Of a stretch of 36,022 nucleotides of DNA, positions 1 through 15,833 are shown one piece after another. Below the pieces are notes generated by a model. The model made no database searches, had not been told where the DNA came from, and worked only from the letters and a program-made list of their open reading frames with translations. The DNA is from Gemmatimonadales bacterium (GTDB taxonomy: Bacteria > Gemmatimonadota > Gemmatimonadetes > Gemmatimonadales > GWC2-71-9): NCBI GenBank assembly GCA_013140635.1, contig JABFSM010000341.1, positions 1 to 36,022 on the forward strand, given 5' to 3'. The position numbers and the translations under genes are program-made. Each line of letters opens with the position of its first letter. Within the stretch, counting starts at the first letter, position 1.

Positions 1-122
1 TCGCCTGGTTGCAGAACTTCCGTCGCATCGTCACCCGCTACGAGTATCACGCCGGGAACTACCTCGGTTTTGTCCAGCTCGGCTGCATTATCATCCTGTT
101 ACGCCATTTGTGAGATGGCTTC
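1..122 (+). mobile_element. Right end of an insertion sequence (IS5/IS4-like), left part outside the window
   Basis: The first 113 bases encode the tail of a DDE transposase. Within about ten bases of its stop the reading changes to subtilase sequence, so the element's right end must lie close to position 120. The bases after the stop (gagatggcttcta) look like a short terminal inverted repeat, but the left end is not in the window, so the exact edge and any target duplication cannot be confirmed. The element interrupts the protease gene that continues to 1794. Confidence 0.7.
3..113 (+). CDS. IS5/IS4-family transposase, C-terminal fragment (runs off the left edge)
   Basis: Reading from base 3 gives 36 codons, [20 protein letters not shown] followed by [16 protein letters not shown], then TGA at 111-113. 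This matches my memory of the extreme C-terminus of IS5-type DDE transposases, where an FAWLQNFRR block follows the catalytic Glu region and the protein ends on a hydrophobic VQLxCIxILLR helix. The DDE residues lie upstream, outside the window, so activity cannot be judged. The frame differs from that of the following protease, which shows that the two are separate genes. Confidence 0.8.
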
Positions 123-1794
123 TAGTCTTGGCCTACCCTGGGGCACTGGGGTGATCACCGACTCCGTCTCTCGAGGTGCCACTGAGGGCCTGTGGACCGC
201 ACTGGAAATGGCTAGAAACTTCGGCCCCATACCTCTTATGGTAATCTCTGCGGGTAATGACAGTCGCGATGCCAAAATGTCGGGGTATCCGAGGCTCAGA
301 GACAGCTTCCCCACCCAAGTGATTGTCGTTGGAGCTTCATCACCCAGGGTCGGGAGTACCCGAAGTCGGTGGGGAGGTCCGAACTTCACTCCCGCTAAGT
401 CTAGCGGCTCAAACTGGGGAACTTTGATCGATGTCTATGCGCCTGGGGAGGGTGTTGGCTTCTACAATGACCCAACCGCTGCGTTTCGTACCGGCACAGG
501 TGCGTCTTTATCCGCCCCGATTGTCTCTGGTATCGCGGCGTTGCTGCTCTCATTTGACTCGACCTTGACTTCAGCTCAACTGAAGGATCTCATCATTCAA
601 GGAGCGGCTGCTGGTGGCCGGAGCATTCAGAATGATCCTACAAAGTTTCTCGTCAACGCCTACGAATCTCTGAAACTGGCTGGCGCCTCAAGTGGCAAGC
701 GGATCTGCGACGCGCCTAGCGCATACGAGCTCGACGGGGCAGGCGGCTACCGAGTCGTCGTCAAGCGCCAAGGTGGGGATGATGTACTTCCGCTCTCCTT
801 CAACCCCCTCACCCAGTACTTCTACGAATTGTCGGTTGCGCCAAGTGGAAGTGCTTTTGCCACCACTCGCATCGACAATGATCCGTCGCTTCCAGATCCA
901 ATTTATCTGGTGAGCGAAATCCACACGCTGTCAAACGGTGTCTGGACGACTCAAGACGCCACCGGCGTCTCGGAGCGGATGTATCTTGAGCGCGACACCG
1001 TCGACGTGGTGCATAACGAGATAGGTAGTACGGCTGTTGTGCGCGGGCCGAACGCGAAGAACCTCGGAGACCTGGACGTACTCGTGAAACGGCTCTCTGG
1101 AGTCACGTATGCTGACTATCAATTCCTGTCGTTTTCGCCAGATGGCAAGTATTTGCTGGTGGGCGCCACGATCCGGAAGACCCCATGCACGGCCGTGGTC
1201 GGTGCGACGATTCTCTTCACCGTCTCGACCTTGGCGCCTACGCTTGTGACAATGGGACCATGCATTTCCGATGATCAATATTTTCCAAGACGACCACTTC
1301 ACGCCGCTTGGGGTCCCTACAGCGATCGCTTTGTAGTGGCAGAAGAAGATAGTTCTTACACTACCGGTACTGCGCTGCACTACATAGCACGGACAATCGT
1401 TGGTGGTGCCGTTCAAATAAATGGAGCTGACCAGGAGATCGCCGGACGGAATAGTTCTGAACACGTCGGCATCGCCCTCGGAGCACTCACCTTCCCGGGA
1501 AGAGGCAGGATGAATCCCACGGGAACACTGATGTACCGAATGGAGTCGACTCCTGCAGACTGCCGTCGGACAGGCCGGTCTGCTACCTCGCCGTTCGCCA
1601 TCGTCACCGACGATGTATTCAATCCCTGGGCACCGTACCCTTGCTATGCCGCGACGGTGCCCTATTGGGCCCCATCGATGAGCCGAGCAACGTCGCCTGT
1701 TGGCGTGCGCTTACCGAAGAATCCACGGGTGCGACGAATCCTTGAACAACAGAGGCAACTCGTCAGGATGCCCGAGGCCCAGAGAATGAAGTGA
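115..1794 (+). pseudogene. Subtilisin-like serine protease (S8), 5' end removed by an IS insertion
   Basis: The remaining frame starts inside the subtilase fold at SLGLPWG, the strand before the large helix. It keeps the oxyanion Asn (VISAGND, codon 256-258) and a catalytic Ser block (GTGASLSAPIVSG, Ser codon 505-507, with Ala in place of the usual Thr before Ser). The Asp and His catalytic blocks, signal peptide and propeptide are missing and were presumably left of the IS. About 380 residues follow the protease domain and include a propeller-like strand (FLSFSPDGKYLLVG). An in-frame ATG at 115, at the IS junction, could allow a 559-residue fragment to be made, but it would lack two catalytic residues. 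Base composition is lower in G+C than the rest of the window. The subtilase call is firm; loss of activity is inferred. Confidence 0.8.
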
Positions 1795-1823
1795 TGCGGC
1801 TGTAGATCGCTGGGACGCACAGA

Positions 1824-1858
1824 GCAGGGGCCGCAGCATGTGGAGCTGCGGCCTCTGC
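1824..1858. terminator. Strong hairpin between convergent genes (probable terminator)
   Basis: Two 14-base arms, 1824-1837 and 1845-1858, pair with one mismatch (core GGCCGCAGC / GCTGCGGCC) around a 7-base loop. The hairpin lies 30 bases after the subtilase stop and 120 bases beyond the 3' end of the leftward thioredoxin gene, so it could act for both. No T-run follows on either side, so it is not a textbook intrinsic terminator. Confidence 0.55.
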
Positions 1859-1978
1859 CGCTGCTGTCAACACCGGTTGAAATTGTGCACTTTCACCGAT
1901 TGCAGTTGCACAGTCGGTGGGTGACGATCCATTGGTCGGTCGACCCGCGGACCAAGGCGATCCTCCGTTCCCGAGCGG

Positions 1979-2530
1979 CTATTTCTTTGCAAACAGCTCA
2001 TGAATCTTGGGAAGGTCGTCGTCGGAGAGTACCCCGATCTTTGCAAAGGCGATTCTTCCATCTGGTCGAACCACGAGTGTGGTAGGAACAAAGCTCGAAG
2101 GGAAGCTCCCCTTAAGACGGGCGCTTGAGGCCACATGATAGACTACTACACCGGGTTCATCAAAGAAGCCAGATATGTTCGGTGGATCTAGAGTCAGAGC
2201 GAGAGCCGCACCGCTTTGAACTGCTGGTGCAGTCGTGAGCCTTCGCCATGTCTCCTTGGTAGCCTGACATGCCGGGCAGTCGTGCCTATAGATCATCACG
2301 AGCGTCGGAACGCCCTTATCAAATCGGAGCATGGAGTCGCCATGTTCGCTCGTTATGACCGCTAAGGGTCTCGGTGCGCGTGAAAGCAGCTCCTTTTCTT
2401 CCGTCTCGGCCAGTGGTGGAGGAGTTGCAGGACTGTCGCGGCGCAACAGCCCTCTTGCCCCCATGAGAAGTGCTGCCAGTACGACAACGCCGGTTGCAGT
2501 GTCTGCGAGCTTGCTCTTGATGTTAATCAT
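1979..2530 (-). CDS. Membrane-anchored thioredoxin-fold protein (CPAC)
   Basis: This 183-residue protein has one N-terminal membrane segment (about residues 13-29, followed by arginines), a proline-rich linker, and a thioredoxin-like domain with the redox pair C85-P-A-C88 (YRHDCPACQAT) and a cis-proline context FVPTT near residue 149. The layout fits TlpA/ResA-type thiol-disulfide proteins facing the periplasm, although the active-site dipeptide PA is not typical of any one named member. The start is supported by GAGGAA five bases before the ATG. It lies 27 bases downstream of the beta-propeller gene on the same strand and is probably in the same operon. Its likely role is making, breaking or isomerising disulfides in the two upstream products; that partner assignment is inference. 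Confidence 0.8.
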   Translation of the reverse strand: MINIKSKLADTATGVVVLAALLMGARGLLRRDSPATPPPLAETEEKELLSRAPRPLAVITSEHGDSMLRFDKGVPTLVMIYRHDCPACQATKETWRRLTTAPAVQSGAALALTLDPPNISGFFDEPGVVVYHVASSARLKGSFPSSFVPTTLVVRPDGRIAFAKIGVLSDDDLPKIHELFAKK

Positions 2531-2557
2531 CAGTTCCTCGGCTGTTTCACGACGAGA

Positions 2558-3610
2558 CTAGAATGTGACTTGAAATACAGTGAGTGTCTTGTCGCCCCCA
2601 TTCGACTCCTCGACCGCGATCAGCACAGTTCCGCGCAGCTGGAGCATCGTTAGATTTCTGCGGAGAGCAATCCGTCCGAGAAACTGTCCGGACACGCCAA
2701 ATACGTCGAAGGATCCGCGTTGGATGCCGATCCCATAGGGCTGCACCCACAGTTGGCCGCGTTCGTCAAACGTCATTCCTCTTGACAGAACGCGTCGTTG
2801 GAACCTATTGGGAGCTGGAAGTGTCACGCTTCGACCCGTGCCCGCCATCATCGCGTTTGCTTCCTTCACTCGCCTTGACAGAGCTTCGTACTCCTCAGCC
2901 CCAAGTGGAACCGCGCCGACGTCTGAGCGCCCAGCGTATGCCTTGAGACTGCCGTCCTTGTCCACAGAAAAGATCTGGTACGCTGTATCGGGACTGGCAA
3001 GGACGATCCGTCCGGTGGGGGACAGAGCTATAGCGCAATACTTGCAGCTTCCGCCATTGGCGGTCCCTGCGATTCTCACCGGGACGAGTCCGACACGCGC
3101 GCCCACCGCGAACTTCTTGGTGTCGATGCGTACAAGGGCAGAGACTTCTGCCCCGGTACTTGTCTTGGCATACAACCCTGAGACATTCCATTCGAGCCAG
3201 GGCTCAAATGGAGTGGTGCCTGTCACCTGACCCAGAAGTGCCCCGTTGCGATTCCATATTTGAATTCGGTTTGCCCCGGGATCCAAGACCGCAATCTCGC
3301 CTTGAGGGCCGACTTCGACATCGGTTGGCGTCCTGAGTTCGCCGGGCCCGCTACCTATGGCAGAGATAGTGAGTCGCAGGTTACCAGAAGGATCGAACAA
3401 CACTACCGCTGGGTCTTTCCCCGCAAGAACGACAATCATACCGTCAGCTCCAATATCAGCGTCGGTAATCTCCTTCATGTTCGCCAAGGCATCGTTCTTG
3501 AGATGGGACGTCAGCCGAAGCTTCGGCAACGCGCTATTCTGTCGCGTCGGCAGCGACAATGAGATCGGTATCATCGCTGCAATCGCGAGGAAAGGAAGGT
3601 GTCGAAGCAT
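2558..3610 (-). CDS. Secreted six-bladed beta-propeller (NHL-like) protein with a CKYC motif
   Basis: This 350-residue protein has an N-terminal signal-like segment (about residues 5-20) and repeated propeller strands of the form DGMIVVLxxxDPAVVLFDPSGN, then GEIAVLDPGANRIQIWNRNG, spaced about 45 residues apart. This is typical of 6-bladed beta-propeller proteins common in Bacteroidota and Gemmatimonadota. C189-K-Y-C192 sits in a loop between blades. No catalytic motif is seen, so binding or scaffolding is the likely role. No good Shine-Dalgarno precedes the ATG at 3610. It is the middle gene of a minus-strand trio, 92 bases after the peptide gene and 27 bases before the thioredoxin gene. A related propeller protein is encoded at 14736. 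Confidence 0.8.
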   Translation of the reverse strand: MLRHLPFLAIAAMIPISLSLPTRQNSALPKLRLTSHLKNDALANMKEITDADIGADGMIVVLAGKDPAVVLFDPSGNLRLTISAIGSGPGELRTPTDVEVGPQGEIAVLDPGANRIQIWNRNGALLGQVTGTTPFEPWLEWNVSGLYAKTSTGAEVSALVRIDTKKFAVGARVGLVPVRIAGTANGGSCKYCAIALSPTGRIVLASPDTAYQIFSVDKDGSLKAYAGRSDVGAVPLGAEEYEALSRRVKEANAMMAGTGRSVTLPAPNRFQRRVLSRGMTFDERGQLWVQPYGIGIQRGSFDVFGVSGQFLGRIALRRNLTMLQLRGTVLIAVEESNGGDKTLTVFQVTF

Positions 3611-3702
3611 ATGATCCGACTTGGCTAAGGGAAAGGAGAGAGGGCGGCTCGCTCCACGGTTAACTCACTGTGACCAGCTGAACCTAATCCTTCATCTGCA
3701 CG

Positions 3703-3915
3703 CTATGTTGCATTGCAGAGGTGGTCAGCGCAGAAATTGAATGTTCCGATACACATGGAAATCGGGTAGTTCGTCTCGAGGGCGCACTCCCAGTACTGAT
3801 CGATGCAAACTTGGCACCAACCTCTTGCTTCCGCGGGCTTAGGTGCTGCCGTTGCCCAGATCATGACCGCAGACGAGAGCAACAGGATCCTTCTTCGAAT
3901 TGGACTCATGAGCAT
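3703..3915 (-). CDS. Small secreted six-cysteine peptide
   Basis: This 70-residue product has a clear signal peptide: RRR at 7-9, a hydrophobic core at 10-24, and a probable cleavage after AEA (28-30). The predicted mature peptide is about 40 residues with six cysteines at 34, 37, 44, 55, 62 and 67 (spacing CX2CX6CX10CX6CX4C), enough for three disulfides. I recognise no family. AGGAG lies 3 bases before the first ATG and 9 bases before a second in-frame ATG (codon 3, 3907-3909), so the second may be the true start. It leads the operon with the propeller and thioredoxin genes. Short signal-peptide peptides beside beta-propeller genes are known in Bacteroidota (NVEALA-type peptides). I see no NVEALA motif here, so this is an analogy only. 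Confidence 0.65.
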   Translation of the reverse strand: MLMSPIRRRILLLSSAVMIWATAAPKPAEARGWCQVCIDQYWECALETNYPISMCIGTFNFCADHLCNAT

Positions 3916-3951
3916 ACTCTCCTAAAGGGAATGGATCGGTACGAGGAGTCA

Positions 3952-3977
3952 AGCCGCCTTTACCTAGGACGGCGGCT
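3952..3977. repeat. Inverted repeat in the leader of the six-cysteine peptide operon
   Basis: Seven-base perfect arms AGCCGCC (3952-3958) and GGCGGCT (3971-3977) flank a 12-base loop, 37 bases upstream of the peptide start. This position suits an operator or a 5'-leader hairpin; which one cannot be told from sequence. Confidence 0.45.
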
Positions 3978-4163
3978 GTCCGCTTCGCGCCCAACATCGT
4001 GCGTGGGCAGCTGACAACGCGCGCCGTCACTCAGTCGAGACTTGGAAATCTGGTTTCTTACTGGCCCGACGACTTTGTGGGCAGAATGGACCAAGGCGGG
4101 ACTAGAGTATGGGCTGCAGGTGTCAACGCCTATATGCGGTTTCTCTGAATCTCTTCATGAACA

Positions 4164-4805: not shown

Positions 4806-5270
4806 ATGACGCTTGAAGAGGCTGTGCTCGGGAGCCTCCCCGACTGCTGTGATCGGTGTCGGGCCATTTTGGCCTTCATGGTGCGAGAGGCGGATGGCGA
4901 TCTTGCCATGGAAAGGTGCGCCGCCAACGCTGGATTCTCGAATCGGCACCTGTTCTCCCGCTGGTTGGCGCGTCATGGCTTCCCTCCATTTCGTACTCTC
5001 TCCGGCTGGGTCCGGGTACTCGGATGGATCTTGGAGTGGAGTGAACGCCGTCTCTCTTTGGCGCGGCAGGCATGGCAGCGGGGGATCGAGCCCTCGGTCT
5101 GTCATGGGACGGTACGGCGCATTGTGGGAATACGGTGGAGCGAGGTTAAACGGGTCGGCGTGGCCGCCATCGCCTATCGCTTTCGATGCGAAGTTGCTCG
5201 GAGAGCGAGGTGTCGCGATGCGACGCGCGCCAAAAGCCTCCGCAGATATGCCTCACGAGACGCTCTTTGA
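4806..5270 (+). CDS. AraC-like helix-turn-helix regulator
   Basis: This is a 154-residue protein. The segment AANAGFSNRHLFSRWLARHG (about residues 38-57) reads as a recognition helix-turn-helix. It is followed by a hydrophobic Trp-rich helix (GWVRVLGWILEWSERRLSL) and a second block (CHGTVRRIVGIRWSEVKRVG) that resembles the second helix-turn-helix of AraC-like proteins. No ligand-binding domain is present, so it is a DNA-binding-only regulator. No Shine-Dalgarno precedes the ATG. TTTAAT ends five bases before it and a TTGACA lies at 4756-4761, so a leaderless start is possible. It precedes the lipoprotein/receptor genes by 59 bases and may control them. A longer overlapping frame (4813-5823) has shadow composition. 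Confidence 0.65.
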   Translation: MTLEEAVLGSLPDCCDRCRAILAFMVREADGDLAMERCAANAGFSNRHLFSRWLARHGFPPFRTLSGWVRVLGWILEWSERRLSLARQAWQRGIEPSVCHGTVRRIVGIRWSEVKRVGVAAIAYRFRCEVARRARCRDATRAKSLRRYASRDAL

Positions 5271-14168: not shown

Positions 14169-14701
14169 GGGACGAGTCGATCGCCCGGAACTACGCCGAA
14201 GCGCTCTTCGCGCTCGGTGAGAAGAGCGGCAACGCCCAGCCGTATGGGGAGTTGTTGTCGGCGCTGGCGGCCGCGATCGCCGCCTCCGAGCCGGCGCAGG
14301 CGGTGCTCATGTCGCCCAAGGTGACGCGGGCGCAGAAGGCCGATATCCTGGCCAAGGCGCTGCCGGGGGCGCCGAAGGAATTTCTGCTCTACCTCGTGGC
14401 GGTCGTAAAGCGGGGGCGGCAGCTGCTCCTCGGCGCCATCGCCTCCGAGTACGACAAGCTCCTCGACGTGAAGCACAACCGGGTTCGGGCCGGCATCACG
14501 CTGGCCCGAACGCCGGACGAGGCGCTCAAGGCGAGTGTGATCCAGGCCCTCGCGAAGGCCCTCGGCAAGGATATCGTGGCCGGCTTTGCGGTCGATCCCG
14601 AGATACTGGGCGGTACCATCGTGCGGGTGGGCGACCGGGTGCTCGACGGGTCGGTGCGGCGGAAGCTCACGCAGCTTCGGAGGCAGCTGCTGGCGAAGTA
14701 G
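14165..14701 (+). CDS. atpH: F-type ATP synthase subunit delta
   Basis: This 178-residue protein begins with the family hallmark IARNYAEALFALGEKSG and ends with the conserved block FAVDPEILGGTIVRVGDRVL DGSVRRKL (two adjacent stretches), which matches the delta/OSCP signature. It caps F1 and binds subunit b. The TTG start overlaps the atpF stop. Normally atpA, atpG, atpD and atpC would follow; here the next gene is an unrelated beta-propeller lipoprotein. Confidence 0.94.
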   Translation: MRDESIARNYAEALFALGEKSGNAQPYGELLSALAAAIAASEPAQAVLMSPKVTRAQKADILAKALPGAPKEFLLYLVAVVKRGRQLLLGAIASEYDKLLDVKHNRVRAGITLARTPDEALKASVIQALAKALGKDIVAGFAVDPEILGGTIVRVGDRVLDGSVRRKLTQLRRQLLAK

Positions 14702-14723
14702 CCGGGCGACCGGGGCGCGGGAG

Positions 14724-14729
14724 TATCTT
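14724..14729 (+). promoter_or_regulatory. TATCTT box before the beta-propeller lipoprotein
   Basis: TATCTT ends six bases before the ATG at 14736, in a place where no Shine-Dalgarno exists. It fits the TAnnTT pattern seen before other starts in this window, but no -35 is recognisable, so it is only suggestive. Confidence 0.3.
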
Positions 14730-14735
14730 GAACTC

Positions 14736-15833
14736 ATGCGCCCAATTGCCGTTGCGCTGTTGTTGGCGGTCGCCTGCTGCCGCGGAGCGAGTAGTCCTAC
14801 GGTGCTCGCCGATTGGGAAGTCGACCCGCAGCCAATTCTCGATATCTCCGGGACCAACCAGTCGGGTCACCCCGTATTCGGTGACCCGATAGGCGCGACT
14901 CGGCTCTCGAATGGCATGATTGTCGTCGCTGACCGCTCCGAATCGGTCATATTGCTCTTTGATTCCTCCGGAACGGTCATCCGTTCCATTGGACGGAAAG
15001 GGAGCGGACCAGGCGAATTCGAGGATATGCTCTGGCTGCGCCGGTGCACGCTCGATTCAGTGTTCGTAATGGACCGCCTGCTGCGCCTGACGGTCATATC
15101 ACCCAATGGCGCAATCGTTCGTCAAGGCGCGTTCCCAATCCCGCTCCACGACGACCGGCTGGCCTGCTCGAAGAGCGGCACCTTCGCCGCCATCACGAAT
15201 GTGCGAGGGGGCGACCAGGTCGACGTGAAGACGTGGACCTTTTCGCAGGCCCGGGGGGCCGTGGCGGTGGCGCAAGGAGGCGGCCCGTTCCGGCCGGTGG
15301 TTGACGACATCCCGGTTCGAGTGCGCCGGCCTCTTGGACAGACCACGACCCTGGCGGTATCCTCCGATCACTTGTTCGTAGGCACCAAGGACTCCGCCTC
15401 GGTGGATCGTTACACTCTCGGCGGACAACATGTTGGGCGGCTTCCGGTCGATGTCGCGCTCCGCAAGACAACTGCGCGGGAGTACGATCTGGCGGTCGAA
15501 GCGCAGCTTGCCTTCCATGAGTCGAGCGCGGTGGAGCGGCGGGAGCACAAGCCGCTTCTCGCGCGAATCCCCCCACCCGAATTCCTCCCCCTCTACGAGG
15601 AACTGTTCGTCGACGCCTTGGATAGTGCCTGGGTCGTCGTATCCTCACTTGGAGATCCTGCCACTCGGCTCCAGCCGCTCTTCGAAGGAGTGTCGCCAAG
15701 GCCCGTAGTGACGTTGCCGCGGGCGGTCCGGGTGTTCGAGATCGGCGCCGACTACATACTCGGGCGTTATGAGGACGATGAGGGCGAAGCACATGTCGTG
15801 TTGTACCGGATGAAGCGGCCCACTGGAAGGTAG
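14736..15833 (+). CDS. Six-bladed beta-propeller lipoprotein
   Basis: With the start at ATG 14736 this is 365 residues with a lipoprotein signal (MRPIAVALLLAVAC, with a second Cys at 15). Propeller strands of the form NGMIVVADRSESVILLFDSS and then TVIRSIGRKGSGPGEFEDM are the same style as the protein at 2558-3610. The GxGPGEF motif recurs in this family. There is no CxxC pair, unlike the other copy. The frame is open further upstream inside atpH, but that part is shadow. Function is unknown; it is likely a periplasmic or surface binding protein. It follows atpH by 34 bases. Confidence 0.75.
   Translation: MRPIAVALLLAVACCRGASSPTVLADWEVDPQPILDISGTNQSGHPVFGDPIGATRLSNGMIVVADRSESVILLFDSSGTVIRSIGRKGSGPGEFEDMLWLRRCTLDSVFVMDRLLRLTVISPNGAIVRQGAFPIPLHDDRLACSKSGTFAAITNVRGGDQVDVKTWTFSQARGAVAVAQGGGPFRPVVDDIPVRVRRPLGQTTTLAVSSDHLFVGTKDSASVDRYTLGGQHVGRLPVDVALRKTTAREYDLAVEAQLAFHESSAVERREHKPLLARIPPPEFLPLYEELFVDALDSAWVVVSSLGDPATRLQPLFEGVSPRPVVTLPRAVRVFEIGADYILGRYEDDEGEAHVVLYRMKRPTGR

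Follow-up and report, generated by a model that had tools for sequence, protein, structure and literature searches.

In methylamine dehydrogenase maturation, a small exported protein, a beta-propeller and a membrane thioredoxin-fold protein belong together: MauA is the small subunit, MauB the propeller and MauD the membrane thioredoxin. MauB has seven blades; MauA, a beta protein larger than the peptides described here, carries a quinone made from two tryptophans. To our knowledge, methylamine dehydrogenase and some bacteriocins are among the few cases in which a disulfide enzyme serves a single small client. In Bacteroidota, the genes of NVEALA (PF14055) neighbourhoods encode a six-bladed propeller next to a short secreted peptide, a precedent that we used as a lead only, and we know of no redox partner or cysteine hairpin there. 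Two antiparallel helices cross-braced by disulfides are found in CX9C/CHCH proteins, in plant hairpinins and in the worm neurotoxin B-IV (1vib). We conclude that some Gemmatimonadota carry an undescribed set, consisting of a tiny six-cysteine secreted protein and an enzyme of its own that handles disulfides, in most cases next to a propeller. The possibility that such a set was new had been raised in an initial annotation of this DNA and stands: no curated family fits the peptide, and a literature search (with subscription papers and preprints mostly outside its coverage) found no paper on the combination of peptide, thioredoxin and propeller.

The set came to light in a window of 36,022 nucleotides, by which we mean the whole stretch of DNA that was analysed, from a Gemmatimonadales genome of 3.8 Mb that is 93% complete. 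Three genes on the minus strand, separated by 92 and 27 bases in agreement with the first annotation, encode a peptide of 70 aa (3915-3703), a propeller of 350 aa (3610-2558) and a thioredoxin-like protein of 183 aa (2530-1979). Genes were called with our own codon-usage script, and some starts are approximate. For the peptide, translation more probably starts at the second of two ATG codons, at 3909 (giving a 68-aa precursor, 3909-3703), because the ribosome-binding-like AGGAG at 3923-3919 is 9 nt from it, compared with 3 nt from the ATG at 3915, and because the homologue at L076, also 68 aa, starts MSP. The peptide has cysteines at positions 34, 37, 44, 55, 62 and 67 (motif CX2CX6CX10CX6CX4C, 3816-3715). 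The propeller has cysteines at 189 and 192 alone (CKYC, 3046-3035), and the thioredoxin-like protein at 85 and 88 alone (CPAC, 2278-2267). The initial annotation was right that all three products carry a CxxC pair and that none is a haem c site (CQVCI, CKYCA and CPACQ, with no CxxCH). However, the pair is not a trait of the set as a whole, since homologous peptides have CX3C and other linked propellers lack CxxC. A scan for promoters and terminators gave nothing convincing, and PADLOC, used to look for anti-phage defence, returned no matches for the window proteins. Near the trio, an open frame at 4806-5105 resembles a short AraC-type helix-turn-helix regulator.

The peptide begins with a Sec signal peptide, cleaved between AEA and R according to its sequence, which leaves a mature part of about 38-40 aa. 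In its homologues, too, a Sec-type signal peptide is followed by six cysteines, which align with one another. All six are invariant in 26 of 26 aligned peptides, almost no other position is conserved, and the same six are kept in the peptides of a genus, g74, whose operons differ in their redox gene (below). The common spacing is C-X3-C-X6/7-C ... C-X6-C-X3-C. The window peptide (CX2CX6C ... CX6CX4C) follows this rule at its inner four cysteines, and its outer two are each shifted by one residue, in opposite senses, leaving the sum unchanged. The family pattern occurs 27 times in 485 kb of loci, always inside such cassettes, and never in Markov-shuffled controls, which give the relevant number since the loci had been picked for such cassettes. 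The peptides fit none of the Pfam or NCBIfam families, and for that of the window there was no match at all; TIGR04453 and TIGR04117 weakly match 5 and 6 of the 26, respectively (best TIGR04453, E 0.0004). A search of PDB sequences with the peptide found no solved-structure homologue, and the window's own genome has no further relative of the peptide outside the window. The initial annotation had mentioned the NVEALA-type neighbourhoods of Bacteroidota for comparison; we rejected membership of that family: PF14055 has no match in the window's genome and none among 12 peptides, and it does match the control, Bacteroides ihuae.

The mature peptide is predicted to be a two-helix hairpin. The AF2 model of the window peptide has helices at residues 27-46 and 52-67, with pLDDT of about 79-90 by block and 86-90 over residues 31-60; a fold search with it gave no significant match (1vib, E 9.8). 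The cysteines, at helical positions 0, 4, 11 and 0, 7, 11, point to one side of each helix, and the natural pairing would therefore be a ladder of three inter-helix disulfides, C1-C6, C2-C5 and C3-C4, which fits the spacing. Helices lined with cysteines can also bind metals, and a different reading is that the peptide binds a metal or other cofactor through its cysteine thiolates while the TlpA-like protein holds them reduced for loading. Two features of the peptides speak against cofactor binding: the cysteine spacing is symmetrical, as in a disulfide ladder, and no residue besides cysteine is co-conserved.

The peptide is not peculiar to the window. The initial annotation had left it to wider searches whether the peptide is conserved beside such genes, and it is. 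We searched 394 genomes of the class and 307 of the phylum, and profile searches found the peptide in at least 19 genomes, in four families of the same class. Within the 394 class genomes, the best relative of the window thioredoxin was in G256, with a six-cysteine peptide just upstream. The nearest thioredoxin is 36% identical to that of the window, and the window trio is without close relatives. Six-cysteine secreted peptides adjoin thioredoxin matches in G256, G141, G177, G153, G188, G162 and G174. A peptide profile (A1) added loci in G131, G134, G147, G215 and G099, and a wider profile (A3) added genus g74 (G102, G109, G167 and G172). Only the peptide profiles led to G131, G134, G147 and the four g74 genomes, and a redox gene lies beside each of their peptides. 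Genes in the peptide operons often overlap or nearly touch. Conceivably, the genes are chance neighbours, each conserved on its own account, and the propeller partner does switch subfamily between lineages. Yet a thioredoxin-fold gene lies within the peptide operon at all 16 loci with intact flanks, even though the window's thioredoxin subfamily has a single copy in its genome. Chance is therefore scarcely credible and is already contradicted.

Gene content and order differ among lineages. The window has the order peptide, propeller, thioredoxin. In G099, which belongs to the same family as the window, the order is thioredoxin, PepA, PepB, propeller; PepA and PepB are paralogous peptides that are found as a pair in most lineages. 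The same four genes are followed in family f10 (G134, G141, G147, G177) by the gene of an ABC ATPase and then by one whose product has about 250 aa. Family f4 (G131, G153, G162, G174, G188) has thioredoxin, PepA and PepB in an operon without a propeller, and several of its genomes have a divergent propeller-like gene beyond a recQ-like gene (sequence match in G188 and G196). Within f4, genus g74 has the order peptide, 420-aa lipoprotein, DsbA-like protein, and family f8 (G256) has only peptide and thioredoxin. In G215 the cassette is cut by a contig end, and in G196 and G204 the peptides and thioredoxin lie at the ends of separate contigs, which is consistent with the same cassette. Overall, a propeller or propeller-like gene is in the operon at 10 of the 16 intact loci and absent from 6, and its subfamily differs between lineages. 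Between families f4 and f10, mature PepA has changed less than the thioredoxin, with 53% identity compared with 32%.

Several other loci combine similar parts. At L092 (3629-5472), the gene order of the window is repeated by genes for a secreted peptide with four cysteines, a propeller with weak similarity to virginiamycin B lyase and a thioredoxin-fold protein with CPWC; this is the same theme recurring with a different peptide. At L083 (5729-6777), a gene for a thioredoxin-fold protein with CPYC precedes one for a secreted peptide of 68 aa, whose six cysteines form another, C-terminal pattern. L144 (5664-8891) encodes an eight-cysteine peptide, a propeller and a further secreted product of 404 aa, and L146 (2545-5043) two six-cysteine peptides and then a propeller; no thioredoxin gene was seen near either.

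The trio has a G+C content of 0.53-0.57, compared with 0.65 for the window, and a GC3 of 0.54-0.62, compared with 0.73-0.87 in three typical genes. Among genomes of the window's family covered by the peptide-profile searches of class and phylum, the cassette was found only in G000 and G099. It is likely that the trio was gained horizontally. The genes at positions 1-4000 of the window have this same low G+C content of 0.53-0.57, and a neighbouring secreted peptidase-like gene may have been acquired laterally together with the trio.

The paired peptides and the end of the f10 operons raise the question of a bacteriocin. At L078, L079, L140 and L141, these operons close with the ABC ATPase gene and that for the protein of about 250 aa, which has no Pfam match and is probably an ABC permease; the PADLOC matches of the ATPase resemble generic ATPase similarity. 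PepA and PepB could be the halves of a two-peptide bacteriocin or toxin whose oxidative folding the redox enzyme would catalyse, as thiol-disulfide proteins are found in some bacteriocin clusters, and the f10 transporter would then serve export or immunity. However, the cassettes of the window, G099, f4 and f8 have no ABC genes, and the mature peptides, with a net charge of 0 to -6, range from neutral to acidic. The peptides are also conserved rather than diversifying. In genus g100, mature PepA, counted from the first cysteine, is under purifying selection (pN 0.05-0.09 versus pS 0.39-0.65), and the signal peptide is freer to vary; these figures describe g100, the window lineage having no other species of its genus among the genomes searched. 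We consider a bacteriocin quite improbable.

The redox partner is a membrane-anchored TlpA/ResA-like protein with a CPxC-type motif at 12 of the 16 intact loci and a DsbA-like protein at the other 4. The window protein has a hydrophobic N-terminal segment, CPAC and a VPTT cis-Pro motif. Across ten aligned thioredoxins, C85, P86, C88, W95, V148 and P149 (the CP-x-C site, the Trp and the VP of the cis-Pro motif) are invariant, and free variation of the CPAC cysteines, which would have spoken against the proposal of the initial annotation, is not seen. The window protein scores below curated cut-offs (Thioredoxin_2, 15 bits versus 27), and we assign it to the TlpA/ResA-like group because the thioredoxin profile (A2) matches solved structures, the nearest being StoA, ResA and DsbE. 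In g74, the redox gene encodes a DsbA-like protein with CPFC or CPCC (PF13462, E 2e-18; PF01323, E down to 6e-13), which the TlpA-like profile does not detect at E 0.01. The linkage to the peptide is thus kept with a different thioredoxin-fold family and survives replacement of the enzyme. This swap is the strongest evidence that the enzyme serves the peptide's cysteines.

We regard the link between peptide and redox enzyme as strong, and we only infer what the peptide does and in which direction the redox reaction runs. Of the redox pairing first proposed for the window, the association itself is upheld by its conservation in four families and by the DsbA-like swap, and the enzyme probably makes or edits the peptide's disulfides. 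The window's genome encodes elsewhere a VKOR and two DsbD/CcdA-type proteins, so oxidising and reducing supply are both possible. The direction may be reducing, because the closest relatives of the thioredoxin (StoA, ResA, DsbE) are mostly reductases. This kinship also favours cofactor loading: ResA, CcmG and StoA act as reductants, and the two DsbD/CcdA genes could supply the reductant. The g74 partner, however, belongs to the DsbA-like family of oxidases and isomerases, and, together with the symmetry of the spacing, this makes cofactor binding unlikely.

The propeller is the looser member of the set. The secreted window protein scores 21 bits against PF17170 (DUF5128), just under the gathering score of 22.9, and also matches NHL; its close relatives L096 and L011 score 26 bits against PF17170. 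Its AF2 model (pTM 0.76, about 24 strands) has the six four-stranded blades of an NHL-type propeller, and Foldseek matches it to the NHL domains of TRIM71, Thin and Brat (E 1e-12 to 6e-11; 1q7f, TM 0.60/0.74). CKYC lies in a low-confidence loop just ahead of a strand. The initial annotation had counted this motif as part of the redox set and asked whether it is confined to peptide-linked propellers; the tree and alignment show otherwise. The window propeller groups (SH-aLRT 95) in an SCxxC subfamily with a paralogue from its own genome, L096 (SCGLC), with L011/L097 (SCDLC) and with the frameshifted L013/L095 (SCIFC), and no peptide or thioredoxin gene was found near the L096, L011 and L013 propellers (the L011 contig is only 3.7 kb long). 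The six peptide-linked propellers of G099, G134, G141, G147, G177 and G215 lack SCxxC, and those of f10 and G099 sit elsewhere in the tree. CKYC was therefore inherited from the propeller's own lineage. A scan of the collection with the propeller found one relative only, on a peptide-free Gemmatimonadota contig. In g74, the second gene of the operon (the 420-aa lipoprotein) aligns with propellers in hhalign (probability 89%, E 2.5e-6, 87 columns), and it is likely, though not certain, to be a propeller itself. The propeller is therefore common in the set but exchangeable.

Some further features of these propellers are worth recording. At L096 (6604-7680, on contig C128 of the window's genome), the SCGLC propeller gene lies between E1- and E2-like 2-oxo acid dehydrogenase genes, with no cysteine-rich peptide. 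The propeller of L013/L095 (genome G032) is interrupted by several in-frame stops. A second clade (L015, L020, L022, L028, L030; SH-aLRT 96) has GCxxC near the N-terminus, at a place different from that of SCxxC. Another NHL-like secreted propeller gene, without CxxC, lies at 14586-15833 of the window, just after an ATP synthase delta-like gene.

Based on these results, we think it probable that a dedicated disulfide catalyst matures one or two hairpin peptides and that these serve thereafter as small subunits outside the cytoplasm, in many cases together with a propeller. Sec would export the peptide, which would lose its signal peptide. Its disulfides would then be made or proof-read by the thioredoxin-fold protein, anchored in the membrane on the periplasmic side; we infer this step from the invariant linkage and the exchange for a DsbA-like protein. 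The product would be a small helical hairpin braced by the ladder, and this peptide, or the PepA/PepB pair in most lineages, would be a stable small extracytoplasmic subunit. The co-encoded six-bladed propeller might, in many lineages, be its binding partner, a weaker suggestion. Against this explanation, we count the kinship of the thioredoxin with reductases, the absence of the propeller from 6 of 16 operons and its change of subfamily between lineages, which do not bear out a fixed three-protein complex, and the slight shift of the outer cysteines in the window peptide. More tentatively, we speculate that the cassettes represent a new class of system working outside the cytoplasm, in which single or paired six-cysteine hairpin proteins, a dedicated but replaceable disulfide enzyme, an exchangeable propeller serving as receptor or scaffold and in some cases an ABC transporter form a ligand-binding or signalling surface module of Gemmatimonadota.

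An arrangement with a single client that recurs in four families and outlasts replacement of the enzyme is a natural experiment on the purpose of such enzymes, and the gene set allows a direct test of dedicated disulfide folding in a small bacterial protein. Small secreted proteins of this class may also have gone unnoticed so far, because they have no curated family, their genes are short enough to escape gene callers and the phylum has few cultured members.

Other known systems share parts of the cassette. The DUF5128/NVEALA neighbourhoods likewise have a short secreted peptide adjoining a six-bladed propeller. TIGR04453 (Lepto_8Cys) and TIGR04117 are also small cysteine-rich proteins and, judged by their names, differ in cysteine number or repeat. 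The helical-hairpin proteins share the disulfide-braced two-helix form, whereas the peptides here have six cysteines, three per helix, and no sequence match in the PDB. With TlpA, ResA, StoA and CcmG (PF08534, PF13098; DsbE, TIGR00385), the thioredoxin shares the fold, the N-terminal anchor, the CPxC-type site and the cis-Pro; it differs in being tied to six-cysteine peptides, and the window member falls under every curated cut-off. The parts list resembles that of methylamine dehydrogenase, where a small exported protein rich in disulfides is likewise encoded together with a propeller and with a thioredoxin-fold protein dedicated to it in the membrane. Taken literally, this parts list would make the cassette an enzyme built of small subunit and propeller, comparable to methylamine or quinohemoprotein amine dehydrogenase, in which the thioredoxin plays the role of MauD, and 4 of 10 thioredoxins do match MauD weakly (best E 0.0012). 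However, the propeller is of the six-bladed NHL type and often absent from the operon, the peptide is a predicted helical hairpin without a conserved tryptophan, and the window proteins match no MauA or MauB family, so that such an enzyme is very improbable. The cassette is not a member of the methylamine dehydrogenase sets, because folds and sequences differ, but by analogy it may work somewhat like methylamine dehydrogenase maturation.
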